64,000 nucleotides of DNA from Tritrichomonas musculus (Eukaryota; Parabasalia; Tritrichomonadida; Tritrichomonadidae): NCBI GenBank assembly GCA_039105265.1, contig JAPFFF010000031.1, positions 1,178,001-1,242,000 on the forward strand, given 5' to 3'. A model generated the notes under the pieces. It had not been told where the DNA came from. It was given only the letters and a program-made list of their open reading frames with translations, and did no database searches. Made by a program: the position numbers and the translations under genes. Position 1 is the stretch's first letter. Each line of letters starts with the position of its first letter. Below are positions 1,851-24,965 of the stretch, piece by piece.

Positions 1851-2125
1851 CAAAAAAAAAATCATGTTTACTAAATCATATCCACGAAAATATTTATATT
1901 GTTTTGATAATTTCACTGATTTAATGTCATTTTACATCCAATTTTTCAATTTCACCATCAAAGGTCAATTTCATCTCGAATACCAACAAGAATAATGAAC
2001 AAAAAATTATTAAAGAAAATAAGTTTTTAGCGATAAAATCAAAATCATCACACCCTGTCTTTGAGCCTTTCTAATTTTTATTTTATTTCAGTTTCATTGA
2101 AAAAATTTCACCAAAACCGAAAAGA

Positions 2126-2413: not shown

Positions 2414-2867
2414 TGCACCCCCCAATAATAACACTATTTGGATTTCTGTATTTATTCATTTCCTTTCCAAAAAAAATTTTTCATTCCGTTTACTCTAGAA
2501 CTAGTTCCTGATGCTGACCGATGAATAATTCAGGGGTTTTAATTCATATTTTTCTCTCAGCTGGCTAATTAATTCTTTTGTTTGTTTTGATACAGTAGTA
2601 AGGTCAAGGGGGCTACGCTCGGAACTCGCTCCGCCCACCCTTAACATATTTCAGAAGCCCATCCAACGCCCTCAGGACACCATTACCAGAGCTCTAAAAA
2701 TGAGTTTGTAAACGCTGCACTATAATTATGGTGAGTTAATGATATACCTGAGTTAGTTCTTCCCGTATAGCGCTAGTAACAGATATATCGCCTTCTAAAA
2801 ACCCTATTTTCGAAATCTCTATAAATAACACCAAACGTATTTTAAATGATTTTTATTTCTACCCTAA

Positions 2868-3137: not shown

Positions 3138-3162
3138 AGAATTTTTTTTTTAATTTATATAA

Positions 3163-5823: not shown

Positions 5824-5834
5824 AGTAGTTAAGT

Positions 5835-7396
5835 ATAGCAAACACAACACCCTCATAAGCACAAATACACATCCAATTAAATACACATCATTTATTTTCT
5901 TTTTTTGTTTTTATTCTTGTCCAAATGACAACCAAGCAATATGTTGACTGGAATGTGTTTGAGAGCCTTCCCGTTAAATCATATGAGATAACTTATACTA
6001 AATCCGCCTCGCAGCGAAAGCTCGGCTTGAGCACAGAAGAAGAAGAGATAACCATAGAGAAAACCATAAAGAAGTTCATCTGCCAAGCGCCTATTGGTTC
6101 AGGCAAATCAACAGCAATAAGGAAATGGATCTATAACACAGTACCTGATAACAAGTTCATACTCATCGTACCTACCATTAACATCGCTGCGGAGTTCTAC
6201 TCTAAGTTGTATGTAGCATTAAACAACAATCACCCTGAGAACATAGATGAAATGATAAAATTATGTGTAAAGGAAGGTGCATTTAAGGAGTTTAAAGAAG
6301 CCATCAAGCACTTTATACCTGTTGTTATAACTACATTCTCTACCGCATCTAAGTGTCTTGGAGGAATCATAGAGCATTTCTATCACCACCAAATAGATTT
6401 CAACAGTGAATACACACTCCTTATTGATGAAGCACACCTACTACTAGAACACATATCGTTAATAGAGATCTGTAGAGAGTTTAATAAAGTAGGCCCGATT
6501 ACTGCTACAGCATCTGACATTTCTTGCTTATCAGTCTTTGAAGAATACGAAAAGATAAACCCATTAGCCGACATCAAATACCACAGAACGATATATCTAT
6601 ACAAGCTGAGAAGCAATATGCAAGAGCAAAGAGAGACTATAGCTAAACAAGTACTAGAAGAGATAAAGAGGTATGATAAGATATTAATTAAGATAGAAGA
6701 CAAGAATGAATGTGAACGATTAAAGGAGTGTATCGACAATGAACTTAATAAAGCATTGTACAACTCTGATAAGAAGGAAGTAGAGATAAGTGATGAAGGC
6801 AAGTTTGTTAGCACGGAGGACGTTGATATAGTTATTGCTACTTCATGTATCCAATCAGGTCAGTCACTGAAGGAAAATCTATTGTCTATATTCATTCAGA
6901 CCCCATTAGATACCGTATCATCAGTTGAACAGTTTGTAGGAAGAAACAGGAACGAGAATTCAACAGCTTATCTATACATGAGGCAAGTAAAGGTACCAGA
7001 AGAGAAGTTTACATACAAGGTAGCCAAGAACAGATATAAGACAAGACTAAATCAATTGAGAGCTAATGCATGGCAATCAATGAACAAAGATTCATGGATA
7101 AGATACATGAGCAAGATTGGAGAAGTTATTGTTGAAGAGACAGAACAGGAGGAAGAAACAAATAAGGATACAATAATGATAAACGAAAATGATTTGAACA
7201 GAGAGTTTAATGGCAAAAAACAGTTATATCAGCACTTTGGGTTTAAAAACGAGAAGGATGTACCTGAGGGATATGAAATAAGAAGTAGATATAACAGAGA
7301 GAAAGGTAAAATGCAAAGAGTATATAATTTAGTTAAGATAGAGTAAACCATTCAATTATATATTTTTATTTTATGAAGCAATTCAGCATCGATCAA
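5835..7396 (+). repeat. Left long inverted repeat of element H
   Basis: Matches the reverse complement of ~17995-19554 from ATAGCAAACACAAC inwards, through the whole helicase gene, to the ATCAACA-type simple repeat where similarity fades. I noticed only a few substitutions: T/G in the T-rich leader, A/G in the fifth codon region, and one Val/Ile change in the protein. The inner edge is approximate. The outermost 11 bases of H lie outside it on this side, against 272 bases on the right. Confidence 0.9.
5925..7346 (+). CDS. SF2 (DEAH-type) helicase, left inverted-repeat copy
   Basis: A 473-residue protein with SF2 motifs in order: Walker A APIGSGKS (residues 55-62), motif II DEAH (168-171), motif III TATAS (193-197), a motif V-like IATS..QSGQSL, and motif VI QFVGRNRN with the expected arginine. 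It is therefore an ATP-dependent nucleic-acid helicase. The layout resembles origin-binding/UL9-like helicases of large DNA viruses and Polinton-like viruses, but a specific origin-binding role is inferred. The start follows a T-rich leader ending in TTATTCTTGTCCAA. The gene lies wholly inside the inverted repeat, so H carries two copies; the other copy (18043-19464) differs by one visible residue (Val18 here, Ile there). Confidence 0.85.
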   Translation: MTTKQYVDWNVFESLPVKSYEITYTKSASQRKLGLSTEEEEITIEKTIKKFICQAPIGSGKSTAIRKWIYNTVPDNKFILIVPTINIAAEFYSKLYVALNNNHPENIDEMIKLCVKEGAFKEFKEAIKHFIPVVITTFSTASKCLGGIIEHFYHHQIDFNSEYTLLIDEAHLLLEHISLIEICREFNKVGPITATASDISCLSVFEEYEKINPLADIKYHRTIYLYKLRSNMQEQRETIAKQVLEEIKRYDKILIKIEDKNECERLKECIDNELNKALYNSDKKEVEISDEGKFVSTEDVDIVIATSCIQSGQSLKENLLSIFIQTPLDTVSSVEQFVGRNRNENSTAYLYMRQVKVPEEKFTYKVAKNRYKTRLNQLRANAWQSMNKDSWIRYMSKIGEVIVEETEQEEETNKDTIMINENDLNREFNGKKQLYQHFGFKNEKDVPEGYEIRSRYNREKGKMQRVYNLVKIE

Positions 7397-8350
7397 CAAC
7401 ATTTAACAACAGCATCTATCATCATTATTAATATCAACAACACCATCATTTATCATCAACATCAGCATCAACAGTATCATTTATTAATATCATCATCAAC
7501 AACATTTATCATTAACAACAACAGCATCTATCAACATTATTTATTATCATCATCATTTACTATTAACATTAACATCAATATCATTTACTATCAACAACAG
7601 AAATAACAGCATCCATCAACGACGGCATCTATCATTAACAACAACAAAAGCAGTATTAACATTATTTAGCATCAAACAAGAGCATCTATCAACCAACATT
7701 ATTAATATCATCATCAACCAACAGGCATCATCTATCAACAACAACAACAGTATCTATCATTAACAACAATATTAACATTATTTAGCATCTATCAACACCA
7801 TCAGTATTAACATTATTAATATCATCCATCAACATCAACTATCAACAGCATCTATCATTAACAACAGTATTAATATTATTTAGTATTATCAGCAACAACA
7901 TTAACCAACAACAACACCATCTATTAACATCTATCAACAACAGCATTTATCATTATCAACAGTATTAACATCACCATCTATCATTATTAATATTACCATC
8001 AACAACAACAGCATTTACTATTAACATCTATCATCATTTATCAACATCAACACCATCTATTAACATTATTAATATCGACAATAACATTATTAATAATATC
8101 ATTATCAACGGCATCATATATCAACAACAACAGTATTAACATTATTAATATCATTTATCATCAGCATCAGCATCAACAACATTAACCAACAGGCATCATC
8201 TATCAACATTATTAATATCATCAACAACAACAGGCATCATCTATCAACATTATTAGTATCAACAACAACATTAATTATTAATATTATCACCTATCAGCAT
8301 AATCATTTACCAACATCATTTATCATCATCTATCAACAACAGCCAAAAAT
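7396..8350. repeat. Irregular AAC/ATC/ATT trinucleotide-rich tract
   Basis: Almost one kilobase of degenerate trinucleotide words (CAACAACAGCATCTATCATTAACA style) with strong strand asymmetry: purines are mostly A, and G is rare. A short related stretch lies at the inner edge of the right repeat (~17970-18020), so the tract appears to have expanded on one side only. The ORF through it is low-complexity and unlikely to be a gene. No regulatory function can be read from it. Confidence 0.75.
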
Positions 8351-8720
8351 AATGATAAAAGTTTGGTTCTCAACACCATTCAATTCCATTTCTAATGCAA
8401 AAGTGACAAATCAATCAGTAATTAGTAATCAACAACAATCGAATCATTAACAACAATCACGTATTTTTCATTTAAAGGTGAAGAGGCCTCGCAGCGAGTG
8501 CTCGGCACGAGGGTGAATTGTCACCCGATAAACACCACCTTCTTGTTTTCATTCCCTTCAATTAGTGATATCGATAATTCGTTGATAACACTTGCAATAA
8601 CATTCACAACAAGGACAATTACAATAAGGTCAAATACAGGGAAAATGCATTTAACAACTACAGGTGAAAAAAATCACCCTAGACTTATTGCTTTCAACAA
8701 CAAAAAAGATAATGTTTCCT

Positions 8721-8787
8721 GTTCCATGATAATGTTCCATGTTCCATGATAAAACACTTCCTAAAAAATGGAGCGGACAGATGACAG
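8721..8787 (+). repeat. Left arm of a 67-bp inverted repeat around the PrimPol gene
   Basis: The arm contains GTTCCATGATAAT, GTTCCAT and GTTCCATGATAAA in succession, like small iterons, then CACTTCC and GGACAGATGACAG. Its reverse complement is present in two pieces: 11118-11163 (46 bp, perfect) and 16895-16920 (26 bp, perfect). They share the bases TGGAA and are separated by element R. The arms bracket the PrimPol-SF3 gene. They could be element termini or origin-type sites. No target duplication is visible outside them. Confidence 0.85.
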
Positions 8788-8824
8788 ATGACAGAACGAG
8801 AGACAAAAATATAACAAATCTTTT

Positions 8825-11056
8825 TTATATCATTTCTTCAAACTCTACTATACTTTCATCTGGTGTTTGCTGATAGATGCCTTTGCACTCTTGCTTTAAT
8901 ATATAGTACCAAGTAAGATTACCATTTATTCTCTTTCTCTTGTGTTCACACTTATCTTTCAACTGTAACTGAAATGTCCTTTTCTTCATCTCTGTTGGTT
9001 TGCACCTTAATGCTTCATCACAATTCATTCCCTCTACAAGAGCATTATAATATTCACATATCCATATGTCGAGAGGAGATTTACTTGCGTCAATTAAATC
9101 TTGTTTTGCATCAGTCATAGGTATTTCTCTTACCTGGAAATTAGATAAATCTCTTTCCATGAAGAATGTAAGAAGAGTGTTATAAAAGTCTTCATCAAAG
9201 GATGAACATAATTGTTGGAAATATTTGTAATCTCCTTTATGCTTACCATTACAAGCGAGAACAACATACCTTCTATCACCGTTTTCTATTTTTACAGGAA
9301 AGCTGTTATTGCTGACAAAGATGAAATTGGATACGTTTTCTGCATCACGTCTTGGTACTAACTTCTCGTTTATACGTATGCTGTTATCAGAGATAATAGA
9401 CTTAAGGGCATTGAAGTTTGCTAATCTGTCTTCTCCACAATTCTTTAGTTCATTCAACACAATAAGTATTTTGCCTTCCACAATACTGTTGAACTGTCCA
9501 GTAAGTTCACTTATATCTGTTATATTTTTAGCTGAATATCCACTCAACATCTCACTTAAAACATCTGTAAATCGATTCTTACCGATTCCTTGTAAGCCTT
9601 TTAGTACAAGAGCCACTTCTGTTTTAACTCCTGGATTTTGTACGATGAATGCTATCCAGTTTAATATATAGTCATAGATATGTTTCTCATGGTCGCATAT
9701 CACTTCAAGGATTAAATCAAGAAACATCTTAATCTTGTTTATATCTACCTTTTCTTGCACCTTATACTTGTAACCATGGAAGAGTGATAGTGTATTCTTG
9801 TCTTTGCTGTTAAATTTTACACCAAGTCTTGTGAATTTAGAAAGATTATTCATCAACAATGTATGAGCATTTACCTTCTCGTATATCGCTATTCTCTTTA
9901 ACGTCTTCACAATGTAAGCATCAGTTACAAACTTCAAATAGAACGTTTCACTGATTGAGTTATAGGTCTTGAGAACATAAGTATCATTACCATCATCTAT
10001 AAACCTTAATACTCTTGATAAGTCTTCTACTAGATCCTTGTTTGTGGTATATCTATGTTGTTCTGCCATCTGTCTAATATCATTTATAGTAAACGAGTCG
10101 TTTAAGTCTATATCTTTTATGATAATCTCGTTTTGACTAACCACTGGAGATATAACTTTTATGTAATATTCATTATTCCAGCAACGAAGAATCTTTTCCA
10201 ACACATGTGCTGAAGTACAAGACCTAGCATATCTTCTTCTAGCTCTGTCGAAATTGCTAGCTGCAGCATCAGTAAGTTTACAGTAATTTTGAACATGAGA
10301 GTAAGCTTCATCTATTAGATTTGTTGGAAGTGCATTTAGCGCTTGAAATAAAGTAAATAAAGTAACCTCATCCTCTATTCTTCTTCCACCAGCATCATTA
10401 TGTACTTCTATTCCTGTAAGTCCTTCAATTAAATTTAATGCGTATTGCTCTGATATTGTTTCTCCATCATGATCAAACATTATCTTTTCTATCTCTGGGC
10501 TCTGTTTAATCTTTATACTGATGTCTAGGTCATGTAAGATATCTGAGAGTGACCTTCTTATTTTTGAATCTAATGAACCTTGTAAAAACTTATACGTTGT
10601 AATAGGCGTTTTAGCGTTCTTTCTGACTTTACTTCCTGGCAATACTACAAGTGATCTGCTGTTAACATCTACCGAGGAAAATATATCTACATCATACTCA
10701 GGACTAGTATAACATTTTACCATTCGGTTCGATTCAACATAATACTCTTCTGTATTACAATAAATATGCAATCCACCACTTGCTGTCTGAACAACTATAT
10801 CTTCGTCACTTAATTTACTCATCAATGTCTTACGTATTGCTTCTTTCTCTTCTTGTTTTAGCTCTTTGTTGATATCTAAGTCTACTATGGAGAGATTCAA
10901 ACACTTATTATTAAGAAGAGCTTTACCTGTGACTGCTGTACCACTTCCACCGTCAAGCTTTAGATAATTGTAGAGATTTACTGTGTTGTTCTCTATCCTT
11001 TGCCTTAAAGTGAGTTCATTTAATTCCCAAGAGACTGTCATGTCTGTTTCTGTCAT
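8825..11056 (-). CDS. PrimPol-SF3 helicase replication protein (D5-like)
   Basis: A 743-residue protein. The N-terminal half has archaeo-eukaryotic primase motifs: VDLDI with Asp59 and Asp61, SGGLHIY with His97, and DVDIF near 122. The C-terminal half is an SF3 helicase: Walker A GLQGIGKN (~485-492), a Walker B-like ILIVLNE and sensor motif FIFVSNN, resembling the DUF5906/D5 group. Such fusions start and unwind DNA replication in Polinton-like viruses, virophages and plasmids. The Walker B motif ends in NE rather than the usual DE or EE. The gene runs opposite to those of element R and is bracketed by the 67-bp inverted repeat. It is intact and the start (ATG, 11056) is the first in frame. 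Confidence 0.87.
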   Translation of the reverse strand: MTETDMTVSWELNELTLRQRIENNTVNLYNYLKLDGGSGTAVTGKALLNNKCLNLSIVDLDINKELKQEEKEAIRKTLMSKLSDEDIVVQTASGGLHIYCNTEEYYVESNRMVKCYTSPEYDVDIFSSVDVNSRSLVVLPGSKVRKNAKTPITTYKFLQGSLDSKIRRSLSDILHDLDISIKIKQSPEIEKIMFDHDGETISEQYALNLIEGLTGIEVHNDAGGRRIEDEVTLFTLFQALNALPTNLIDEAYSHVQNYCKLTDAAASNFDRARRRYARSCTSAHVLEKILRCWNNEYYIKVISPVVSQNEIIIKDIDLNDSFTINDIRQMAEQHRYTTNKDLVEDLSRVLRFIDDGNDTYVLKTYNSISETFYLKFVTDAYIVKTLKRIAIYEKVNAHTLLMNNLSKFTRLGVKFNSKDKNTLSLFHGYKYKVQEKVDINKIKMFLDLILEVICDHEKHIYDYILNWIAFIVQNPGVKTEVALVLKGLQGIGKNRFTDVLSEMLSGYSAKNITDISELTGQFNSIVEGKILIVLNELKNCGEDRLANFNALKSIISDNSIRINEKLVPRRDAENVSNFIFVSNNSFPVKIENGDRRYVVLACNGKHKGDYKYFQQLCSSFDEDFYNTLLTFFMERDLSNFQVREIPMTDAKQDLIDASKSPLDIWICEYYNALVEGMNCDEALRCKPTEMKKRTFQLQLKDKCEHKRKRINGNLTWYYILKQECKGIYQQTPDESIVEFEEMI

Positions 11057-11117
11057 ATCTGTTTATGTATCAAGGAGGAAAAAATTAATTAAGAAAAAAT
11101 AAAATGAAATCTGTCAA

Positions 11118-11163
11118 CTGTCATCTGTCCGCTCCATTTTTTAGGAAGTGTTTTATCATGGAA
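11118..11163 (-). repeat. Right arm of the PrimPol-flanking repeat, first piece
   Basis: A perfect 46-bp reverse complement of 8742-8787. It ends in TGGAA at 11159-11163, where element R begins; the rest of the arm continues at 16895 after a second TGGAA. This split is what shows that R inserted here. Confidence 0.88.
11159..11163 (+). repeat. Left target-site duplication of element R (TGGAA)
   Basis: TGGAA directly precedes the R terminus AGTAGTATAC and recurs at 16895-16899 directly after its other terminus. Removing R and one copy rebuilds the uninterrupted inverted-repeat arm, which confirms the assignment. Confidence 0.88.
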
Positions 11164-11219
11164 AGTAGTATACGTTAGGCTGTGCGCCCTTAACGGTCGC
11201 CCAGACCTAACTGCGCCGA
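11164..11219 (+). repeat. Left terminal inverted repeat of element R
   Basis: Pairs with 16838-16894. Inside the arm, GTTAGG (11174) and CCTAAC (11206) form a subterminal palindrome that could fold into a short hairpin. It is far richer in GC than the surrounding DNA. Confidence 0.88.
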
Positions 11220-11301
11220 TGATTTCACCAAGGCCATTTATAAATTTTTTTCTCTATTTTTATTTTTATTTTTATATTTTTTTCTTTATATCAAAAAACA
11301 A

Positions 11302-11601
11302 ATGTGGGGAAAAAGAAGGAACTATATGATCACATTCTGGACACATGAATACCCTAAAGAACTGCCAGATAACTCCACTTATCTATGTACATGTGAGGAT
11401 ACTTGTGAGAATGGCAGATATCATGGTCATGCATTCATTTATTTCAAAAATCCAGAAGATATGAAGTGTGTTAAGAGCTTATTTGGTCATAATGCTCATT
11501 TAGAAGTGCCTCGTAGAAACAGCTGGTGTATTCGATATATACTGAATAACAATACGAGAAAACATGACTTCCAAGAATTTGGTGAACGGCCATTAGATTA
11601 A
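11302..11601 (+). CDS. Minimal HUH (CRESS Rep-like) endonuclease
   Basis: A 99-residue protein with the three motifs of Rep endonucleases of circular ssDNA viruses and plasmids: motif I ITFWTHE (~10-16), the metal-binding HGHAFIYF (His41, His43) and a motif III-like IRYILNN with Tyr79 as candidate nicking residue, followed by EFGERP as often seen after motif III. The lysine usually three residues after the tyrosine is not in that place (Asn). There is no helicase domain; the SF3 helicase of the surrounding element H might partner it (inference). As first gene inside the terminal repeat of R it is well placed to nick or process ends. Family assignment rests on motif reading only. Confidence 0.65.
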   Translation: MWGKRRNYMITFWTHEYPKELPDNSTYLCTCEDTCENGRYHGHAFIYFKNPEDMKCVKSLFGHNAHLEVPRRNSWCIRYILNNNTRKHDFQEFGERPLD

Positions 11602-11618
11602 TTTTTTGTATTTGAAAA

Positions 11619-11930
11619 ATGAGCTTTGTTCCATTAAAAGGCTTTATAAATGACTATGAGATTTTAAATAAATACCCTTTCACCATAAGAAATAAGAAGA
11701 CACGTAAACCATTGAAAGATTCAAAACATAATGAAGGTTATTTGACGGTTAATTTGAATGGTGTAAATTATTTAAAACACGTTATTATTGCCAAACAATT
11801 TTTGCCTAACGATGATCCTGTTCACAAAAAAGAAGTCGATCATAAAAACCGCAATCGTAAAGATAACCATCTATGTAATTTACGATGGGTAACACATTCT
11901 GAAAACAATTATAATCGTAAAATGCCGTAA
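11619..11930 (+). CDS. HNH homing-type endonuclease
   Basis: A 103-residue protein. The C-terminal half has the HNH pattern VDHKNRNRKDN..NLRWVTHSEN, typical of phage and viral HNH nucleases of the NUMOD4/HNH_3 type. The N-terminal half (GYLTVNLNG) resembles the strand-rich region that precedes HNH in these proteins. It would cut DNA and could favour spread of the element or be a passenger homing gene. It starts 17 bases after the Rep gene with a T-rich leader (TTTTTTGTATTTGAAAA) before the ATG. Confidence 0.85.
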   Translation: MSFVPLKGFINDYEILNKYPFTIRNKKTRKPLKDSKHNEGYLTVNLNGVNYLKHVIIAKQFLPNDDPVHKKEVDHKNRNRKDNHLCNLRWVTHSENNYNRKMP

Positions 11931-11946
11931 TTTATTTTTATTCAAA

Positions 11947-13410
11947 ATGTCAGATATAATAATTATTCAAGGTCAAATTCGTTTTAATCCACCTATAACA
12001 AATCAAAAAGTTGCAGATTTGAAAAGAGAACACAATTTTAAATATATAGATATCACAAATAATTATGTGACATGTTTAGTGCCCTATAATTGGATACCAG
12101 CAAAGGGGTTTAGGGATGAATTAGAAATATTTGCGAATAATATGAAGGGCAAATTATTTAGAGAACGTTTTAGTGGTGAAATTTTGGCCTATAAAGGATC
12201 GCCTAATGCTAAATCTGCTTGGCGTTATTTCATTAAATATGGGAAGGTGCAAAGTGACAATAATGCTGCCTTTAAGTTCATAAAATATTATAAGCCAAAA
12301 CCAAAAAGACATGCAAAATGGGTGAAGCCAGAGCATGATGATGCATTACCACCACCTCAAGAAGAGCCATCACAAAATAAAACAATCTTTCAGAAAAAGT
12401 CATCGTCTTCGGCCAAACCTATACTTAAAAAGTTGGCATCTTCATCGTCTTCTTCTCAAACATCTACATTATCATCAAGCGGTACATCAAGAGCGCCATC
12501 TCCTCCCCCACCCCCACAAACATCCCCTCAATCATCAAAACAAACATCAAGGCACACATCAAGACCACCAACACCTCCAATGGATCTAGACCAATTTATT
12601 GATTATAATGCAATCACTGATAATAATTCGCAATTAGAATCAAAAGAAGTATATCCATATCTAAAACTATTAGTAGAAAAAGGAAAAAAGGTGAAAAGAA
12701 TAGGACATGTAGCCTTATTGCCTCCTGATTGGTTTTATTATCTATATGAGAATCCGAAACAAGAAGCAGTGGACTCTCTCTTTGAGTATCTTAGTAAAGC
12801 TCCACAGTTTAATAAGAAACCAATTGATTATTATGATTGCATTGTAATTCCTGCTGAACTAGAGGAACATTGGATATTAATAGTAATCGATAATGGCAAT
12901 AAAGATATCGGTGTATATGATTCAAACATGAAAGCTTACCCAGATATCGGTAAAATAATGAATAAATTCTTGAAATCACAAGGCATTAATCAGAAATATC
13001 CAATGAGATATAATCGTGTTCCTAAACAAAATAATGATATTGATTGTGCTATATTAATGATGCAAAATGCAAGGATATTATTGCATGATGGTAAATGGCC
13101 TTATCCAATAGATGACGTACCTAATATTAGACAAAGAATTGCACGTGAATTAAAGAGCAAATCATTAGAAACAGCTGCCCTCCCACCTACACCACCAAGT
13201 TTTCAAAAACATTCTAACAACACAGAAAAACCGACTCTCCCCAAAAAAAAAATGAGTCAAGCTGAGAAGGAAAGAATCGAACAAGAGACTTATAATTATT
13301 TTATTAAAAAAGGTGCATATCATTTAGCTAAATCATATAAATACCCTTATTGGAATGTTCATGAAGATGTAGAATCTGGTGTACCAAAAGATAATTCAAA
13401 AAGAATGTAA
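11947..13410 (+). CDS. Adenain/Ulp1-type (C48-like) cysteine protease with long N-terminal region
   Basis: A 487-residue protein. The C-terminal half has a catalytic set in canonical order: His308 in EEHWILIVID, Asp325 in GVYDSN, Gln361 in PKQNN and Cys367 in DIDCAIL. This matches Ulp1/adenovirus-protease-like enzymes, which mature virion proteins in Polintons, virophages and adenoviruses. Residues 1-110 form an unrecognised globular part; residues ~125-215 are Ser/Pro/Gln-rich and probably disordered. The leader TTTATTTTTATTCAAA lies immediately before the ATG. Next to a candidate structural gene, a maturation-protease role is plausible but inferred; a deSUMOylase-like role is the alternative. 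Confidence 0.8.
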   Translation: MSDIIIIQGQIRFNPPITNQKVADLKREHNFKYIDITNNYVTCLVPYNWIPAKGFRDELEIFANNMKGKLFRERFSGEILAYKGSPNAKSAWRYFIKYGKVQSDNNAAFKFIKYYKPKPKRHAKWVKPEHDDALPPPQEEPSQNKTIFQKKSSSSAKPILKKLASSSSSSQTSTLSSSGTSRAPSPPPPPQTSPQSSKQTSRHTSRPPTPPMDLDQFIDYNAITDNNSQLESKEVYPYLKLLVEKGKKVKRIGHVALLPPDWFYYLYENPKQEAVDSLFEYLSKAPQFNKKPIDYYDCIVIPAELEEHWILIVIDNGNKDIGVYDSNMKAYPDIGKIMNKFLKSQGINQKYPMRYNRVPKQNNDIDCAILMMQNARILLHDGKWPYPIDDVPNIRQRIARELKSKSLETAALPPTPPSFQKHSNNTEKPTLPKKKMSQAEKERIEQETYNYFIKKGAYHLAKSYKYPYWNVHEDVESGVPKDNSKRM

Positions 13411-13435
13411 ATTAAAAATTTTTCAATAAATAAAA

Positions 13436-13804
13436 ATGCCAGAATTAATTTTGCCAATTGAATGTTCACTTTATTTTAATAAAACATTGAAAAAGACAGA
13501 AATATCTGAATTATCAGAAATTTGTAAATCAAAGTTTAAATTATCAAACAAAAAAATAATCTTTACTGATTGGGCAAAGAAATTTGATTGGGATGATTAT
13601 GAGGATGTTAAAGAAATATTGAATTTAGTGGCCAAATATTGTTCAGTACATAAAATCACACTTTTTGGATCGATAATTGGTTATATAGGTGAAAGGAATG
13701 AAAATATGGTCAAATCAAAAGCCTATCAGATTCAATTGAAAAAGGGAGATATAATTCCAAAGGAAATAATTCTTCATGCTAGTAAATCAAGAAAGAATAA
13801 GTAA
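13436..13804 (+). CDS. Hypothetical 122-residue protein of element R
   Basis: A mixed alpha/beta-looking protein without membrane segment, signal or recognised motif. It lies 25 bases after the protease gene and 20 bases before the large structural candidate, in a compact same-strand run. Start context is TTTTTCAATAAATAAAA. It could be a minor virion or regulatory protein, but nothing in the sequence decides this. Confidence 0.6.
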   Translation: MPELILPIECSLYFNKTLKKTEISELSEICKSKFKLSNKKIIFTDWAKKFDWDDYEDVKEILNLVAKYCSVHKITLFGSIIGYIGERNENMVKSKAYQIQLKKGDIIPKEIILHASKSRKNK

Positions 13805-13824
13805 GATATTTATTTTTAGTCAAA

Positions 13825-15621
13825 ATGGAGTTACCGCCAAGAGTTAAAACACAACACCCTAATCGTGAAAATATTGTACATGATGCTAACGTTCCTGTCC
13901 CAATTGAGACTGCTTTTTTCTTAGAGGACTCACAAAGAGATCCAAGCAAATTTAATCGTTTTTATTTCAATTTTCCTGGTGATTGGTCAACGTCAAACAA
14001 AGGCGAAACAATTGTGGGTGTAAGGTCAATGTGGCTCGTTTCAAAAAGACGAAAACTTGAATTCACCATCTCAATTGCTAAATATTTAAAGGTTTCATTT
14101 GATAAAATACCTGGATTCAGTATACACGATAGAATTAAATCTATGACTTCATCTCTTTATCTGGATGATTTAAAAATCAAAGAAATAAAAGTAATTGACT
14201 GGCTCTCAACAGAAAGAGATTTCAGAGGATTTTTTGAAGCAGTCCACAATGCTTTGAAATCATATATCTCAATATGGTGGAATAGCATCACTAACACATT
14301 TGAACAATCTGATATTGATGTTTTGAATAGAGACATACAAACTGATGGTTATTATGACGAAAAAGGTTTTCATGAAAAAATATATTCTGAACGAAACAAT
14401 AATTCTTTAGATAAATACGGTTGTGCTTTCAAAATAACTGAAATGAATAAAGATGCTATTGGTGCATGTGTTATGATGAAGAATGATGACTGGAATAAAA
14501 AATTCTTTACTGATAATATATGGTATACAAATGCTAATGAAAAGAATTTAATGCAAGCATTTATCAGAAGACCTGTTAGAGGAGAAGGATGGGAAAAAGA
14601 TGGCAAAATTGAATTGAAAGTGAAATTTAATGATGGCACTTTGAAAAATGGAAATGAAATAGGTGTTGATTGGGGAAACACAAATTTCAGTCATTCAGTT
14701 GAAGGCTATGATCTTTATGCAATTGAAATATTAATATATAATTATTCGAAACGAACTTTTGAGGTGAAAAACATTGAGGAAATTTTCTTGGATATCTATT
14801 CACCAAATTCAGATATAGCAAATCGAATGTCATTTCGCCTTGAGGGAGTTCACCATGTTGAAAGGAACGATACAGCTTATTGCGATACTATCGGTGTTCT
14901 CGATACAATTGAAAAAATCTCTTATCGTTATGAAAATTCAAAAATTGATGCAAGTCATAGAAATATTGAATTATATCTGAAAAAGGATTTGGTGGATCCA
15001 GTAGATGAGTTCAATTGGGATGGAATTATGAATCCTTTCAAATATATTATTCAGCAACAATTTTATGAAATAACACCAAATCCAAATGCAGCAACCACAC
15101 TTTATACAGATTATAATATCACAAGTTCTAAAATCATAACCGCCGATAACATCACGACGATGAGAAGTGATTTAAATTTAGTGACAAATAATTTAGATGT
15201 CGTATCGTACGATTTGAATGAAATGAGTCATAGAGTTAACGTACTTGATTCAGAAATGGTTCAAGTCAAAAACATAACTCAACATTTAGAGAATGACGTT
15301 AAGAATTTAAGAATTGTTTCATATACAGCCCTAGCTTTTGGTATTGCAGGTACAGTGGGGAGTGCAGCATCTATCGGCATGCAACTTTTTCCACATGGTA
15401 TCAGAATTTTAAAAGCAGCTTTTTCTAGCTTTTTCAGAGGTATGTTTAGTAGGTCCAGAGTTTTGGGTGCTCCTGATTGGACCAGATTACGAATTATGTT
15501 CGGAAATATTGCTGTTAGAAGCATAACCACCGATATTTCACCTGTTATTAATTGGTGTAATTCAGAATATAAACAATTAGACGATATAACTTTTGATAAC
15601 GAAGATGAAAATCCAGAATAA
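13825..15621 (+). CDS. Large candidate structural (capsid/penton/fibre-like) protein
   Basis: A 598-residue protein. Residues 1-430 are rich in short alternating hydrophobic stretches suggesting many beta strands (RFYFNFPG, LEFTISIAKYL, IELKVKF). Then follow a heptad-like segment (~440-495), a Gly/Ala-rich hydrophobic segment (TALAFGIAGTVGSAASIG, ~500-520) and a basic stretch. Size, beta content and the neighbouring adenain-like protease suggest a virion protein; I could not match it to a double-jelly-roll capsid or penton family. Its TAA stop (15619) is followed in the same frame by another long ORF without its own start, so the original product may have been longer. The leader TTTATTTTTAGTCAAA precedes the ATG. 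Confidence 0.6.
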   Translation: MELPPRVKTQHPNRENIVHDANVPVPIETAFFLEDSQRDPSKFNRFYFNFPGDWSTSNKGETIVGVRSMWLVSKRRKLEFTISIAKYLKVSFDKIPGFSIHDRIKSMTSSLYLDDLKIKEIKVIDWLSTERDFRGFFEAVHNALKSYISIWWNSITNTFEQSDIDVLNRDIQTDGYYDEKGFHEKIYSERNNNSLDKYGCAFKITEMNKDAIGACVMMKNDDWNKKFFTDNIWYTNANEKNLMQAFIRRPVRGEGWEKDGKIELKVKFNDGTLKNGNEIGVDWGNTNFSHSVEGYDLYAIEILIYNYSKRTFEVKNIEEIFLDIYSPNSDIANRMSFRLEGVHHVERNDTAYCDTIGVLDTIEKISYRYENSKIDASHRNIELYLKKDLVDPVDEFNWDGIMNPFKYIIQQQFYEITPNPNAATTLYTDYNITSSKIITADNITTMRSDLNLVTNNLDVVSYDLNEMSHRVNVLDSEMVQVKNITQHLENDVKNLRIVSYTALAFGIAGTVGSAASIGMQLFPHGIRILKAAFSSFFRGMFSRSRVLGAPDWTRLRIMFGNIAVRSITTDISPVINWCNSEYKQLDDITFDNEDENPE

Positions 15622-16785
15622 TATTCGTTATCAGTTGAAGCCGCTTATGAATTATGTAATCAATTCAGAGAAACATTGAAACCTATTTTAAAATTATTGG
15701 CCTTAAAGATCGATGAAATAGCCAATGAATTTGAATATAATGATTTTATTTCAAAAAGTGATTTGAAAAGAGACGATACAATTGACATTAATGGCAAATT
15801 AATTGATGGCAAAATACATTTAGAAGCTGAGGATACAATAAGTGAAGGAATTATCAAAGTCAGGATTATGATCATGAAAGTAAGCGAATATAATGATATA
15901 GACTATGAAGAGAATTATCCAATAATTCATATATCAAATGGAGAGATATCGAACTATGAGGGCACAGAGAACTTTCCAACTGCATCTCTCCAAGACAAAA
16001 CTATAATTATTGATAACCCAAAGAGACATAGAATTAGTGCAATCAGCATCAAAGAGAACACAGCGATAAGAAGTATGAAATATTCTGTAAATGATATAGC
16101 ATATATGAGTGACATTGATGCGCTTAATAAAAAGATTGATCAAATAGAAGAAAACTCACATACAAACGATGAAAACATAGCAAAAATAATGAATACTTAT
16201 CCTACTGTTGATGAAACAAATGCCGCTTTAGATGTGCTCAAAGGCAGAATTGAGACATTAGAGGCTGAAAATACCACATTAAAGGCTACGATAGCCGCTT
16301 TTGAAGCCAGATTTGCTGCTCTCGAAGGCAAATCAGATCCAGATTTATCCATATATGCATTAAAAGATGACATACCAGATATGAATAATTTGATAAAACT
16401 GGCAAAAGTTAATTATACCTTTGATAACAAATCTGAAGGAATAATTCCATATAATTTAGAAAAAGCACTTGACAATTATGAAGCAACAATGTATCTTTCT
16501 TATCCTGAAACTAAAAATAATATTGTGACTCAGAAAGAAATCAAAGTCAATGTTTCATTTAATTCTGCAAATTCGCCTTCATCGGAATATCAATGTGAAC
16601 CAACAGAAATTTATTTGAATAATATACGATTTCCGTTAGACAAAACAACTTTCAATGTTATTTCTATTGCTCAATCAATAGTTTTCAACAGTTCATTTTT
16701 CAAAAATGGAATTTCAAATTCTGAAAATCCAAAATGTGAAATATTTACAAGAACACCATATGCTACCCTATTGGATATAGCATAA
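15622..16785 (+). pseudogene. In-frame extension of the 598-residue protein after a TAA
   Basis: A 387-codon frame in exact register with the gene before it, separated only by TAA at 15619-15621. It has no ATG for the first ~70 codons and no T-rich leader, so it is not an ordinary separate gene. It contains a coiled coil (residues ~190-230 of this part: LEAENTTLKATIAAFEARF) followed by a mixed C-terminal domain, recalling trimeric fibre or tail-stalk proteins. Either one nonsense change has split a ~985-codon fibre-like gene, or the stop is read through. Neither can be decided here. Confidence 0.55.
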
Positions 16786-16837
16786 ACTTTAAAATGGTTA
16801 TGTTTTTTTTTTGTTCAAAGTTCCCTAGTGATATCGG

Positions 16838-16894
16838 TCGGCGCAGTTAGGTCTGGGCGACCGTTAAAAGGGGCACAGCCTAACGTATACTACT
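16838..16894 (-). repeat. Right terminal inverted repeat of element R
   Basis: Reverse complement of 11164-11219 apart from a short difference around the run AAAAGGGG. It ends GTATACTACT, followed directly by the TGGAA duplication (16895-16899). Confidence 0.88.
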
Positions 16895-16920
16895 TGGAAC
16901 ATGGAACATTATCATGGAAC
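16895..16920 (-). repeat. Right arm of the PrimPol-flanking repeat, second piece
   Basis: A perfect 26-bp reverse complement of 8721-8746. Together with 11118-11163 it completes the arm interrupted by element R. The first five bases are the target duplication TGGAA. Confidence 0.85.
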
Positions 16921-16946
16921 ATTAGCGAGACAAAAATAATATATTA

Positions 16947-17219
16947 TTAGATCAACTCATTTATAACTTCATTTAATACACCAAGGCACTTATCATTAAC
17001 TGAATCCTTCTTGTCTACGATTAATATTAAATTACCATTCCTTTTAGTAAACTTGTATCCAGTTATCTTAATCTGATTATTAAGTTCCTTAGGTTTAAAT
17101 TGATTACATTAAGGATTATTCTTTATAAGCTTCCTTAATGGTTTAATCTCATCTCTCTTAGCTAGCTCACTTATGAAGTTAAACAAAATTTCTTTTTCAC
17201 TAATATCATAAATATTCAT
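16947..17219 (-). pseudogene. Small element-H gene with one internal stop
   Basis: A minus-strand frame of 90 codons from ATG at 17219 with a TAA at codon 37 (17109-17111). Both sides look coding: Lys/Ile/Glu-rich helices, then a strand-rich part (YKFTKRNGNLILIVDKK). No family is recognised. Its end is followed by GAGACAAAAAT, which also occurs just downstream of the PrimPol gene stop, suggesting a shared 3'-end signal or old duplication. Confidence 0.5.
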
Positions 17220-17252
17220 TTAAATATAAACAAAAATAATAACAAAGATTGC

Positions 17253-17660
17253 TTACTTATTAATCATATCAGCAAAGACTTTATTTCTCCTCATCATCTT
17301 AGGCATCTGTTCGTAATAAACTATATCAACATCATCGCTCGAGTCATCTTCTTTATTCTGTTTAATTACCTCGTTTATTATTTCTTTAGTAAGTTTCTTG
17401 TGCTCCTTTCGTTCTCTTTCTTTCTTTAAGTACTCGTTTATCTGTTGCAATTCTTGTAGTATCTGTAAACTGATATAAATTGGATCTAGATTAAGGTGGT
17501 GATTAAACTTAGGGCTGTATAAAGGAGGTTGTTCGTCTTCTTCATCTTTGTTATTTGTATTATCGTCTTCTTTATTATTTGTATCTTGTTCGTCATCATC
17601 ATCGCTAGAGGCTTCTTCGTCATCTCTTTTTGTTTCTCGTTCAAAAATAGGAAAAAACAA
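17253..17660 (-). CDS. Acidic, coiled-coil-prone hypothetical protein of element H
   Basis: Up to 135 codons: an Asp/Glu/Asn-rich low-complexity N-terminus (DDEEASSDDDDEQDTNN), then a helical segment (LQILQELQQINEYLKKERERKEHKK) likely to form a coiled coil. The frame has no ATG at its upstream end (its first codon is TTG); an ATG at 17692 lies in another frame, with T runs near 17645 where a one-base slip would join them. The start is therefore uncertain and the gene may be frameshifted. Function unknown. Confidence 0.5.
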   Translation of the reverse strand: MFFPIFERETKRDDEEASSDDDDEQDTNNKEDDNTNNKDEEDEQPPLYSPKFNHHLNLDPIYISLQILQELQQINEYLKKERERKEHKKLTKEIINEVIKQNKEDDSSDDVDIVYYEQMPKMMRRNKVFADMINK

Positions 17661-17726
17661 TACTTGCTAATAATAATATTTGCAATTACCAATACTTACC
17701 GAACTTACTTTTTACTATTATTGTAA

Positions 17727-17969
17727 ATGAGCAAATCTGGCGAATACTTGAAAGGCACAAAACGATTACAGATAATAAACAAATGGTTAAGAGGAATCGA
17801 AGACCCGTTTTACGAAGTTTATCCAACACGCAAAGACGGAAAATATATTCTTAAGAAACGAAAGGAGCCATTAGAAGTAAGCGACGATGAAGATGCCGAC
17901 AATGAAGATAATATAAAAAGAGATGCCGAACGAGATAATACAAAAAGAGAACAAGACGAACGAGAATGA
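17727..17969 (+). CDS. Small charged hypothetical protein of element H
   Basis: An 80-residue ORF starting after TTTTTACTATTATTGTAA, divergent from the acidic gene at 17660 with a 66-base gap that must hold both start regions. The first 45 residues look folded (Trp/Tyr/Arg-containing); the C-terminus is Asp/Glu/Arg-rich (DDEDADNEDNIKRDAERD). No recognised family. It ends just before the inner edge of the right inverted repeat. Confidence 0.5.
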   Translation: MSKSGEYLKGTKRLQIINKWLRGIEDPFYEVYPTRKDGKYILKKRKEPLEVSDDEDADNEDNIKRDAERDNTKREQDERE

Positions 17970-17994
17970 TAAATGCTGTTGATGCTAATAATGT

Positions 17995-19554
17995 TGATAG
18001 ATGCTGATTGCTTCATAAAATAAAAATATATAATTGAATGGTTTACTCTATCTTAACTAAATTATATACTCTTTGCATTTTACCTTTCTCTCTGTTATAT
18101 CTACTTCTTATTTCATATCCCTCAGGTACATCCTTCTCGTTTTTAAACCCAAAGTGCTGATATAACTGTTTTTTGCCATTAAACTCTCTGTTCAAATCAT
18201 TTTCGTTTATCATTATTGTATCCTTATTTGTTTCTTCCTCCTGTTCTGTCTCTTCAACAATAACTTCTCCAATCTTGCTCATGTATCTTATCCATGAATC
18301 TTTGTTCATTGATTGCCATGCATTAGCTCTCAATTGATTTAGTCTTGTCTTATATCTGTTCTTGGCTACCTTGTATGTAAACTTCTCTTCTGGTACCTTT
18401 ACTTGCCTCATGTATAGATAAGCTGTTGAATTCTCGTTCCTGTTTCTTCCTACAAACTGTTCAACTGATGATACGGTATCTAATGGGGTCTGAATGAATA
18501 TAGACAATAGATTTTCCTTCAGTGACTGACCTGATTGGATACATGAAGTAGCAATAACTATATCAACGTCCTCCGTGCTAACAAACTTGCCTTCATCACT
18601 TATCTCTACTTCCTTCTTATCAGAGTTGTACAATGCTTTATTAAGTTCATTGTCGATACACTCCTTTAATCGTTCACATTCATTCTTGTCTTCTATCTTA
18701 ATTAATATCTTATCATACCTCTTTATCTCTTCTAGTACTTGTTTAGCTATAGTCTCTCTTTGCTCTTGCATATTGCTTCTCAGCTTGTATAGATATATCG
18801 TTCTGTGGTATTTGATGTCGGCTAATGGGTTTATCTTTTCGTATTCTTCAAAGACTGATAAGCAAGAAATGTCAGATGCTGTAGCAGTAATCGGGCCTAC
18901 TTTATTAAACTCTCTACAGATCTCTATTAACGATATGTGTTCTAGTAGTAGGTGTGCTTCATCAATAAGGAGTGTGTATTCACTGTTGAAATCTATTTGG
19001 TGGTGATAGAAATGCTCTATGATTCCTCCAAGACACTTAGATGCGGTAGAGAATGTAGTTATAACAACAGGTATAAAGTGCTTGATGGCTTCTTTAAACT
19101 CCTTAAATGCACCTTCCTTTACACATAATTTTATCATTTCATCTATGTTCTCAGGGTGATTGTTGTTTAATGCTACATACAACTTAGAGTAGAACTCCGC
19201 AGCGATGTTAATGGTAGGTACGATGAGTATGAACTTGTTATCAGGTACTGTGTTATAGATCCATTTCCTTATTGCTGTTGATTTGCCTGAACCAATAGGC
19301 GCTTGGCAGATGAACTTCTTTATGGTTTTCTCTATGGTTATCTCTTCTTCTTCTGTGCTCAAGCCGAGCTTTCGCTGCGAGGCGGATTTAGTATAAGTTA
19401 TCTCATATGATTTAATGGGAAGGCTCTCAAACACATTCCAGTCAACATACTGCTTGGTTGTCATTTGGACAAGAATAAAAACAAAAAAAGAAAACAAATG
19501 ATGTGTATTTAATTGGATGTGTATTTGTGCTTATGAGGGTGTTGTGTTTGCTAT
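17995..19554 (-). repeat. Right long inverted repeat of element H
   Basis: Reverse complement of 5835-~7396 with only a few visible substitutions. It ends GTTTGCTAT at 19554, after which 272 further bases lie before the H terminus at 19826. Confidence 0.9.
18043..19464 (-). CDS. SF2 (DEAH-type) helicase, right inverted-repeat copy
   Basis: Same 473-residue helicase as at 5925-7346, with Walker A, DEAH, TATAS and QFVGRNRN motifs intact. The ATG at 19464 is preferred over an upstream in-frame ATG (19497): that one is open only because of a single T-to-G difference in the T-rich leader, and the matching position is not ATG in the left copy. Both copies read from the outside of H inwards. Confidence 0.85.
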   Translation of the reverse strand: MTTKQYVDWNVFESLPIKSYEITYTKSASQRKLGLSTEEEEITIEKTIKKFICQAPIGSGKSTAIRKWIYNTVPDNKFILIVPTINIAAEFYSKLYVALNNNHPENIDEMIKLCVKEGAFKEFKEAIKHFIPVVITTFSTASKCLGGIIEHFYHHQIDFNSEYTLLIDEAHLLLEHISLIEICREFNKVGPITATASDISCLSVFEEYEKINPLADIKYHRTIYLYKLRSNMQEQRETIAKQVLEEIKRYDKILIKIEDKNECERLKECIDNELNKALYNSDKKEVEISDEGKFVSTEDVDIVIATSCIQSGQSLKENLLSIFIQTPLDTVSSVEQFVGRNRNENSTAYLYMRQVKVPEEKFTYKVAKNRYKTRLNQLRANAWQSMNKDSWIRYMSKIGEVIVEETEQEEETNKDTIMINENDLNREFNGKKQLYQHFGFKNEKDVPEGYEIRSRYNREKGKMQRVYNLVKIE

Positions 19555-19826
19555 GATAAGTAGATGCTTGTATGTTTACTAGGTTCTTAATGGTATTATA
19601 CTTATGAAAGTAAATATTTGGTCACGTTACTGACACAAAATCTGACGCCTAGTATAGAAGCTTGTGGAAATTGTGTCATAGCGTGACAGAATTGACACAA
19701 GGTATAGGCAGAGGGAACATAGCGACCGCGGCCGTATGCGAAGCTCCAAGCGAAGGCGTGCCTGAGCTTGGCTGCGGAGCGTATAGGCTGGGGGAGAGTA
19801 TCGACCACTGCCTATACTATACTACT
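19555..19826. other. Right-end segment of H absent from the left end
   Basis: 272 bases between the inner long repeat and the terminus CTATACTATACTACT. The outer half is unusually GC-rich for this contig (GACCGCGGCCG near 19724; paired words GAAGCTCCAAGC and GCTTGGCTGCGGAGC that can fold). GTATAGGCAG (19702) and CTGCCTATAC (19807) form a further inverted pair about 110 bases apart. The left end has lost this segment or the right end gained it. Confidence 0.6.
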
Positions 19827-19831
19827 ATGGA
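19827..19831 (+). repeat. Right target-site duplication of element H (ATGGA)
   Basis: Second copy of ATGGA. The polymerase reading frame resumes directly after it, in the register expected for the gene before the insertion. Confidence 0.85.
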
Positions 19832-20924
19832 TGGTGTTCCTAAAGGTAAACCTAAGGTAATTCCTGATAACTGTTCTCACGAACAACTCATGATTTATGA
19901 TACATTTTTCATTGAAATTAATATTAATAAGATATCATGTAAATCAAATCGTCCTTATAGGTTCGGACAGATATTCAAACATAACGACAAGGATTCAAAA
20001 ATATTCTGTAATGAAACCGTCAATCATTATTACGTAGATAAGATTACGTTAATGGATTTAATGGAATTCTATGATATCGAATATGAATTCATTCGTGGAT
20101 ATTACTTTGATGAAGGTTTCAACGATAAAATTAATGAATTTATTAAGACATTATTCGATTTGAGATTGAAGTATAAATCAGAGAAGAATCCATTGGAGAA
20201 AACGATTAAATTATTGCTCAACTCTATCTATGGTAAATCAATATTGAAACTTATGACTGATGAAATTAAAGTGGTGGATCAGAAGAAACTCATATCATAT
20301 ATCTATCGTAACTACAACTTCATTAAAGAAATATCGTTTAATGATTCATCAAAATCGTTTGTTAAGAAGATTAAACCCATCAACAATCATTTCAATCTTC
20401 CTCAGTTCGGTGCGTTAGTGTTATCATGGAGTAAACACATAATGAATCAAGTTATGAGTACTGCTGAACAACATAACATAGATATATACTATCAAGATAC
20501 CGATAGCGTACACATAAAAGAATGTGATGTTCCTAAATTAGCTGCGATATATAAAGAGAAATACGGTAAAGAATTGATTGGCAAACATATGACTCAGTTC
20601 CACTGCGACTTCGATTCATTCAATGGAGCCGTCGGTGATATTCATTCACGTAAGCTCATTGCTCTCGGTAAAAAGAGTTATCTCGATATTCTCGTCGATG
20701 AAGAAGGTAATGAGGGATATCATATGCGTATGAAAAGTGTACCTAAACAATGCGTATTAAATAAATGTAAGCGAATGGGAATCACAGTTGAAGAATTATA
20801 TGAGCGTATGTATCATGGAGAATCTATTACATTCGATCTCACTGACGGATCAAATTGTTTTCGTAAAACTAAGACATTCGATCAAGTCACTCAACCTCAA
20901 TTCTATCGAAAAGTTCAATTCTAA
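19832..20924 (+). pseudogene. polB: Protein-primed family-B DNA polymerase, 3' half
   Basis: Continues the polymerase frame: VPKGKPKV just after the insertion point, motif B as KLLLNSIYGK, and catalytic motif C as YQDTDSVHI (~20490-20520), ending at TAA 20922. It supplies the palm and thumb missing from the part at 3979-5823. The upstream in-frame ATG at 19662 falls inside element H, so that stretch is not polymerase sequence. No lesion is seen within this half, which suggests that disruption by H is fairly recent. Confidence 0.88.
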
Positions 20925-21626: not shown

Positions 21627-22700
21627 AAAATTATATTTTTATTCTCGAGATTCAAAAAATAAAAGAGCAAAAACCAATCCGTCTACGTGGATGCGTAATG
21701 CATTCGATATGAGATGATACGTACCCGGGATGATATCACCCCATAAAGAGAAACACTGCATCCACTATGGCTGGGGAAAGAACGAATCTTTCATTACAAG
21801 AGGATAACATTTACTGGTAAATGCCTTCGTGCTATCTATACCATAAGCAATAGCTTACCACATAGGTGTAGGTTAGTTCGTATTCGATTATAATCTGGAC
21901 CGGTGCTCTTCAGAGATAAAATCATTTTAAATCAGTTAAAAGATGATTGCAACAATGGCTTATCAAGCTACTCTTGATTTCAATCAGTAAAAAAATAAAA
22001 TCGATAAGATTTCATGAAAATGTTTTTATTTAATAATTTAAAATATATATCTGCGCAAATATTATATTTTTATTCGTTTTTAAAGACGATATTTATGCAT
22101 ATTTTACCTTAAACATTAACTTTGAATTAAAAAATAGTACATATTATTTTATATATGATAATAAATAATATATTACGATAAATTAGTAATTCATATATCA
22201 TTATTGTAAAAATCGATTAAAAATCTTTATTAGAAAAAGTTAGGTAATTGCAACTTTTTGAGAATAATAAAAATCTAAATTTTATTCTTGTCAAATGATT
22301 TAAATTTAAAATAATATTATAAATAATAAATACCAAAGTAAATAATATAAATTACATTGAATTAAATTTTTATCGTAAAAATTCTTTTTTTTTTCCGATT
22401 AATCCACTAACAATTGAATTGAGCTTTCAATTTTTTTTCTTTGATTGCTATCTAAAAAGAAAAAAAAACCCATTGAAATATTAAATTAGTATTATTTATC
22501 AGTTGCCATAGTTTTCTCTTCTTCCTTTTTAAAAACTCTTATATGAAATACTGATCTCAGAAAAAAAAAATGGATAGATTCATATGAAATTAAATAGAAT
22601 GATGGTTTAGATATTGAAAAATAAAAAAAATACAAGCAAATTTGATGAGATGATATCAAATTTGAAAGAAAAAATATTATAAAGTATTTAAAAAAAACAT
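21627..22700. other. Non-coding stretch at the edge of the Maverick remnant
   Basis: From 21627 to about 22010 composition is less AT-rich (CCGTCTACGTGGATGCG, TACCCGGGATG), like the mobile element, but all frames are closed; the element's truncation point probably lies here. Beyond 22010 the DNA is typical AT-rich host spacer. AAAAAGTT (22234) and AACTTTTT (22252) form a palindrome that recurs in other spacers. A matching AGTAGT-type terminus was looked for and not found. Confidence 0.5.
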
Positions 22701-22765
22701 GAATGGAACTTTTTAAAAGAAAAAAAAAAAATTGAGATTATATGAAGCAACAAGGAAATATCAAA

Positions 22766-22772
22766 TCACTTT
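22766..22772 (+). promoter_or_regulatory. Initiator-like TCACTTT upstream of the first GH13 gene
   Basis: TCACTTT lies 17 bases before the ATG at 22783 and fits the trichomonad initiator TCA(C/T)T(T/A), known to position transcription starts close to the start codon. The second GH13 copy has the same element at 27343. Confidence 0.6.
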
Positions 22773-22782
22773 AATAAAGATC

Positions 22783-24429: not shown

Positions 24430-24539
24430 GATACAATAAAATAAGATAAACGACTAAATTCTTAAGTAAAAGAATTTCTACAAAATTATTACTTTTTTTT
24501 AATTCAATTAATTCAATGAGTTTATAGAATAATTTCTAT

Positions 24540-24965
24540 AAAAAAGTTAAAAAAATTAATAAATGGAAATTAATACTCAAAACAAAAATGGTTAACCATG
24601 CAACTTAATCTCAGCTGTTTGTGTTGATTACACATTTTCTAAAGTTTCAGGAGAAAAATGTATTCATACTATCAAAGTGAATCAAAGGTTGTAAAAGGTA
24701 ACCTCTGTCACTTTTTCGCTGTCATATCACTTCTTCAGTAATTGGCACAGAAGCCTTCTTGATCATCATCATATCAAAGTCAGTTTATGAACTACCCACT
24801 TCCAAGAATGAAGCACTCAATCTTCCAAATGACGACTGAGCAGTCAAAGTTGCATGTGCCAAAAAAGTTGCTTTTCTGTTTGGTCGAAGTGAGAAATTCT
24901 TCGAATATTCATTGGAAGCAACAAACAATTCATTAAAGGAAATTGGAGAGCAGCATCATTAGATG
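24540..24965 (+). pseudogene. Decayed copy of the RCC1-kinase gene 5' part
   Basis: Matches the sense strand of the kinase gene around 29400-29795 in many separate words: CAACCATGCAA/AACCATGCAAC, CCTCTGTCACTTTTT, TTCAGTAATTG.CAC, AAGCACTCAATCT.CCAAATG, TTCGAATA.TCATTGGAAGCAAC. Stops and indels occur throughout. It lies directly after GH13 copy 1 just as the intact kinase follows copy 2. A block of glucosidase plus kinase was therefore duplicated; here the kinase has decayed and its 3' part is gone. Confidence 0.8.

Follow-up and report, generated by a model that had tools for sequence, protein, structure and literature searches.

Element R, which lies in a stretch of 64,000 nucleotides of the genome of Tritrichomonas musculus, a protist of the mouse gut (assembly GCA_039105265.1, contig JAPFFF010000031.1, positions 1,178,001 to 1,242,000; hereafter the window), is almost certainly a defective, non-autonomous and internally deleted copy of a Maverick/Polinton of about 25.7 kb. 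The first-pass annotation of this DNA had described R as matching no known element type and as a possible undescribed virus-like satellite. Neither description is supported, as the genome holds ~25.7-kb Mavericks with which R is collinear and shares its ends, and its internal junction was found at one place only (40 of 103 candidates scored). Of the Maverick set composed of PolB, integrase, packaging ATPase and protease, R itself holds only the protease, and for this reason it is filed as a deletion derivative and not as a Maverick proper.

Borders and termini of R

The borders of R as an insertion are exact, to a degree that chance does not explain. Its terminal inverted repeats (TIRs) align over 67 columns with 91% identity (E = 1.3e-18), and the target-site duplication (TSD) TGGAA stands on both sides (Table 1). 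When the flanks are joined with a single TGGAA, 75 of 76 positions are identical to the intact inverted-repeat arm at 8720-8795, which demonstrates the empty site of R. The base-exact borders, the inverted ends, the duplication and the position of R as a second element nested inside a host element, H, where it interrupts an arm of another inverted repeat, had all been proposed beforehand and are borne out. R is also compact: 94% of it lies in open reading frames (ORFs), counting broken parts, with gaps of 16-25 bp. The ends read AGTAGT...ACTACT and follow the 5'-(AGT)2//(ACT)2-3' rule of Mavericks, with TIRs as expected of them; the duplications of both R and H measure 5 bp and not the 6 bp of Mavericks. 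The sequence AGTAGTATA occurs at 3 of the 128,000 places of the window (both strands), namely at both ends of R and at the right end of H.

Table 1. Positions in the window of R, its genes and the surrounding elements (aa, amino acids).
Feature	Position	Strand	Evidence or remark
R, internally deleted copy of ~25.7-kb Maverick/Polinton	11164..16894	+	TIRs, TSD, empty site, collinearity with other copies
Left TIR of R, starts AGTAGTATACG	11164..11228	+	
Right TIR of R, ends CGTATACTACT	16828..16894	-	
TSD TGGAA, left copy	11159..11163		flank of R
TSD TGGAA, right copy	16895..16899		flank of R
Intact inverted-repeat arm	8720..8795	+	partner arm 11110-11163 + 16895-16921, broken by R
ORF1, stand-alone CRESS-type Rep endonuclease domain, 99 aa	11302..11601	+	Pfam Viral_Rep 1.1e-7
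ORF2, HNH endonuclease, 103 aa	11619..11930	+	HNH_3 3e-11; PHROG HNH 7e-21
ORF3, cysteine protease of Ulp1/C48 type, 487 aa	11947..13410	+	Peptidase_C48 7.8e-18; SENP5 6.8e-9
ORF4, 122-aa protein without assigned function	13436..13804	+	coding-like codon usage; present in full-length copy L022
Gene A, first 210 codons (321-aa putative capsid-like protein in L022)	13825..14454	+	99% to L022 ORF; 26 A-only genome places
Deletion junction, 3-bp overlap of joined parts	14452..14454		
Gene B, C-terminal part (~2,100-aa putative fibre-like protein) to in-frame stop	14452..15621	+	46 B-only places; 96% to L024 ORF
Gene B remainder, same frame behind stop	15622..16785	+	BLAST matches cross the stop
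H, host element of R, termini AGTAGT...ACTACT	5824..19826		TSD ATGGA at 5819-5823 and 19827-19831
Probable left end of outer PolB element M, AGTAGTAAGG..., GC-rich	2594..2658	+	

The internal deletion

R was compared with other copies in the T. musculus assembly (193.4 Mb, 746 contigs); in all genome searches the best candidates of a first look were scored, and counts are scored places among these candidates. Bases 1-3291 of R match the left end of the full-length copy L022 at 99.06%, and bases 3289-5164 match the right part of another full-length copy, L024, at 98.6%, with 3 bp common to both matches. Of the 40 places scored with a 101-bp query laid across the junction, R is the sole one to span it; in 29 the match ends at base 55 of the query, and in 10 it begins at base 53. 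As for the right terminus, the last 205 bases of R match 29 of 40 rows of other right ends at 97-99%.

The same break runs through the largest frame of R. The ORF of 598 aa (13825-15621), which had been put forward as a structural candidate, and the next ORF (15676-16785) form one frame with a stop between them. The 598-aa ORF has no match in Pfam, and a protein search with it gave 51 database relatives, none of whose BLAST matches starts before residue 190 and also runs past residue 260. Family A comprises the relatives of the first ~210 residues, proteins of 329-433 aa, and family B those that match from residue 192 or later, of up to 1,044 aa in this search. In the genome, 73 of 2,673 candidates were scored with the same query and a single place, R, has both halves. 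The A-only places match residues 1 to 210-214 at 97-99% identity, and 25 of the 26 lie in open frames of 328-329 aa; the B-only places start at residue 192 or later, and 19 of the 46 lie in frames of at least 2,100 aa. A and B stand on one strand at a distance of 20.4-21.0 kb, for example on contigs C74, C2, C4 and C14. Judged from these sequence comparisons, the 598-aa ORF joins, through the deletion, the beginning of A to the final part of B and is cut by a stop. In other words, the supposed structural protein is a truncated chimera of two genes, and the fused frame is a by-product of the deletion.

This arrangement arose by a single internal deletion of ~20 kb, whose breakpoints lie inside gene A, behind codon 210 of its 321, and inside gene B, near residue 1,346 of 2,101, with the two sides joined at the 3-bp overlap. 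The Rep, HNH, protease and 122-aa genes of R are those that precede the breakpoint on the left in a full-length copy. An element with R's ends entered H, which in turn had earlier entered the PolB gene of a third element. In one variant of this reading, the deletion may have taken place on the spot, after a full-length copy had inserted into H, so that R itself never moved. In its favour, the junction is seen only at R's site, and nothing specific speaks against it; had the deletion occurred in replication, prior to insertion, the outcome would look no different, and we place the in-place variant slightly short of an even chance. Both ends are retained, and they would be expected to carry the replication and integration signals. 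Full-length relatives could then supply the PolB to replicate a copy like R and the integrase to insert it, as the (AGT)2//(ACT)2 ends and the 5-bp duplications suggest.

A joining of the two halves by an assembly artefact, or by two separate insertions, is scarcely credible. In its favour, the genome is repetitive, with 42.67% masked (PMC11978803); R has, however, a single TIR pair, a single duplication and an exact empty site, and its halves lie in the same orientation, collinear with full-length copies and overlapping by 3 bp.

The full-length family

The search for further copies with the same termini and gene order, which had been proposed as a check, yielded both full-length and other short copies. 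With all 143 candidates scored, the Rep of R has 137 places in the genome, of which 78 match over 97 or more of its 99 residues with an identity of 95% or higher, and 54 at 100%; these copy numbers are rough, because some contigs, to judge by equal rows, look like duplicates. Right ends were represented by 41 rows (40 of 203 candidates scored), of which one TIR-only piece was dropped and 40 were used. For 26 of the 40, a Rep stands on the same strand not more than 80 kb upstream. The spans from Rep to right end measure 25.4-25.95 kb in 11 cases, 2.2-15.4 kb in 10 (R included) and 41-72 kb in 5, these last being nested insertions or wrong partners. Ten end pairs, picked since both ends appeared in the lists, were compared: the outermost 21 bases are identical on both sides in all ten, the (AGT)2//(ACT)2 ends likewise, and a 5-bp duplication is present in six. 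The pairs that have no duplication, on C11, C55, C61 and C7, are all of full-length (~25.7 kb) spacing.

The gene content of the full-length element was pieced together from three separate stretches of three copies. From the left, the order is Rep (99 or 127 aa), HNH, protease, the 122-aa gene and A (321 aa), followed by an integrase-like gene of 380 aa, a packaging ATPase of 285 aa (Pox_A32 6.4e-6, above the Pfam cut-off) and ORFs of 132 and 162 aa. Beyond these come an ORF of 558 aa and further small ORFs. The right part holds a primase-helicase (DUF5906 5e-22), PolB of 1116 aa (5.8e-33), then on the opposite strand an ORF whose length is 213 aa or more, and finally B (2,101 aa). Neither this opposite-strand ORF nor the one of 558 aa has a significant match in Pfam; the latter sits where, presumably, the major capsid protein may be expected. 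A would have a capsid role and B a fibre role. No match was found in solved-structure searches with family A, family B and a capsid-like ORF of contig L001, described below. The earlier remark that integrase and polymerase are missing holds for R, whereas its full-length relatives have PolB and the integrase-like gene.

Other short copies bear on the proposal that R is a satellite-like element, propagating as such with Rep and protease as a working set and borrowing the particles or enzymes of Mavericks. The compactness of R agrees with it, as do the left 3.29 kb, which hold four open genes and are 99% identical to a full-length copy, and the 5-bp duplication. Against it, R alone carried the junction among the 40 places scored in the genome (103 candidates), the breakpoints of the five other short copies examined (of nine besides R) differ from that of R, and the structural frame of R is a fusion cut by a stop. 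A propagating satellite is, on this evidence, very improbable. All five copies keep Rep and HNH, the retention of Rep being partly a selection effect, because the copies were chosen by the presence of Rep near a right end. One of the short copies, L045 (G000:C8:4972608-4977856; 5.1 kb, same ends), has a primase-helicase 58% identical to that of L023 and is probably a recombinant derivative, and L046 and L048 carry an A gene that shares 84% identity with its counterpart in L022; from these values it follows that subtypes and recombinants exist. The family has several dissimilar deletion copies, of which R is one, and nothing points to a satellite that propagates.

A number of observations weigh against reading R as a deleted Maverick. 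Beyond its base 5164, R is unlike L024 except in the TIR. The DNA comparison with other copies covered R apart from 16328-16689, and the uniqueness of the junction holds for the best 40 of 103 candidates. As for the family, the duplications are of 5 bp and not of the 6 bp reported for Mavericks, four of the ten end pairs have no duplication, and 14 of the 40 right ends have no Rep partner. Moreover, the integrase-like gene matches rve at 2e-4, below the Pfam cut-off, and A, B and the 558-aa ORF are putative structural proteins.

Genes to the left of the breakpoint

The genes for an HUH nuclease and an HNH nuclease that had been proposed for R are supported by their Pfam matches (Table 1), as is the pairing of a Rep of single-stranded DNA virus type with a cysteine protease in a virus-derived gene set. 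The Viral_Rep match of ORF1 is above the gathering score, while a match to RRM_1 (0.041) is below its own, and it predicts an HUH-endonuclease Rep of the sort by which a virus of the circular Rep-encoding single-stranded (CRESS) DNA group is recognized. Against solved structures, nucleolin is the best match (0.085) and Rep chains come next, at 0.1 to 1.3; in particular, residues 17-95 align with the Rep chains 6h8o (E 0.96) and 2hwt (E 1.3). H41-G-H43 and Y79 are present and the lysine of motif III is not kept, all three being what we take to be Rep motifs. The same H-G-H and Y are found in P0054, a protein of another data set that is 73% identical to this Rep. No superfamily 3 helicase domain was matched in the Rep, either in the 99 aa or in the 127 aa that an upstream start gives in L022. 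Between R and the copy at C2:694026, in which the HNH gene is frame-broken, the nonsynonymous (dN) and synonymous (dS) divergences of Rep are 0.062 and 0.068; for two closer copies the dN/dS values are 0.017/0.058 and 0.021/0.078, with too few changes to show selection.

As for the protease, the first-pass annotation had called it adenain-like. A cysteine protease is indeed encoded, with matches to the Ulp1/C48 type and SENP5, a type akin to adenain. The 122-aa ORF4 has no significant match in Pfam, and its codon usage resembles that of the other ORFs of R (log-likelihood +21 versus -10 for the best of 1000 shuffles).

The nested elements H and M

From 2594 to 20924 the window shows three nested AGTAGT-ended elements, with M, which carries PolB, holding H and H holding R. 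H sits in the PolB gene of M, and its excision restores a continuous PolB frame. The left end of M is probably at 2594, where AGTAGTAAGG and a GC-rich stretch stand; neither a right end nor a duplication of M was found. The inverted arms of H (5835-7422 and 17966-19554) are 100% identical over 1,548 bp and 99% over 1.59 kb, and each carries an ORF for a DEAD-type helicase. The left end of H does not have the ~270-bp, partly GC-rich stretch present at its right end. Hairpin-forming potential is seen in the left TIR of R on the minus strand (z -3.5) and in the right TIR on the plus strand (z -2.5), with z of -1.2 and -1.4 for the other two TIR strands. Nothing unusual was found at the right end of H (z -1.0) or at the left end of M (z +0.6, +0.2), and the hairpin is therefore not a general feature of these ends. 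Elsewhere in the window, 22633-24559 and 27210-29149 are two direct copies, 97.7% identical, of a gene that by eye looks like an alpha-glucosidase.

Relation to known systems

Internally deleted non-autonomous DNA transposons and defective viral genomes keep their ends, lose their middle and come in several lengths. R and the other short copies likewise keep the ends and lose the middle, at several different lengths; here, however, the parent is a virus-like Maverick, and movement in trans is putative.

The following comparisons draw on selected sections of the cited articles. In vertebrate Mavericks, 5'-(AGT)2//(ACT)2-3' is the commonest end motif, thought to permit jumping back in protein-primed replication, and duplications of 6 bp are reported (PMC8097293). 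Like these, and like the Mavericks/Polintons of Trichomonas vaginalis and Tritrichomonas foetus (Bellas et al. 2023, PMC10120064), the T. musculus family has (AGT)2//(ACT)2 ends and TIRs; its full-length copies have PolB, integrase-like, packaging ATPase, protease and capsid-like genes, and its copy number is high, as in the other trichomonad Mavericks (PMC10120064). Unlike Mavericks as there described, it has 5-bp duplications, a stand-alone CRESS-type Rep with HNH at the left end and a fibre-like protein of ~2,100 aa, and R is reduced to the four leftmost genes and the remnants of two more. In many protist elements no polymerase is detected, and their mode of replication may be a different one (PMC10120064).

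Scans of viral contigs with the 598-aa protein, with families A and B, and with the TIR, a relative of Rep, the HNH gene and a capsid-like ORF gave no relative except two contigs with an HNH of 32% identity. When contigs of prokaryote genomes were searched with family B, three were found, L001-L003, filed as uncultured Mycoplasmatota/Mycoplasmatales metagenome-assembled genomes, which carry fibre-like genes of trichomonad type (the frame of L001 reaches 1,974 aa and is open at the contig end). These are probably misbinned protist DNA. The family A profile found nothing in three neighbouring ORFs of L001 and L002.

Unlike the Reps of CRESS-DNA viruses, that of R has no helicase domain, lacks the motif III lysine and does not stand on a small circular genome. 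What it shares with them, for example with viruses of Entamoeba and Giardia in the sections consulted of PMC7493932, is the Viral_Rep endonuclease domain. A parvovirus-type replication protein and a PolB of Maverick/adintovirus type also meet within one virus group in the bidnaviruses (PMC11071296, in part); there the protein is a parvovirus NS1 helicase protein and comes with a parvovirus capsid, whereas the T. musculus family has a short Rep domain and Maverick-type gene content. A Rep in Mavericks, Polinton-like viruses or trichomonads is not named in the portions searched of the literature, including PMC10120064, PMC11071296, PMC4642659 and PMC12220804, no further search having been made.

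The feature of this trichomonad Maverick family that remains new is its Rep-HNH left end. CRESS Reps cut the nonanucleotide TAGTATTAC. The outermost TIR bases of R, TAGTATAC, differ from it by one base; one-edit matches to TAGTATTAC number 37 in the window on both strands, and within R they occur only at the two ends. This likeness is suggestive and was noticed post hoc. A possibility, which we regard as speculative and rather unlikely, is that full-length trichomonad Mavericks use the CRESS-type Rep on their own ends, with nicking of the TIR, which can form a hairpin, coupling a rolling-circle-type step to protein-primed replication. If true, Rep acting on Maverick ends would unite two viral replication systems in a single hybrid element.

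The apparent mixture of single-stranded and double-stranded DNA virus genes in R is thus explained as the left end of a Maverick family, and not as a new satellite. In T. musculus, several copies with internal deletions and of different lengths derive from this family, and they offer material for dating insertions and for asking whether defective copies move in trans. In addition, the presence of a stand-alone Rep beside PolB in one element raises a testable question, that is, by which mode trichomonad Mavericks replicate.

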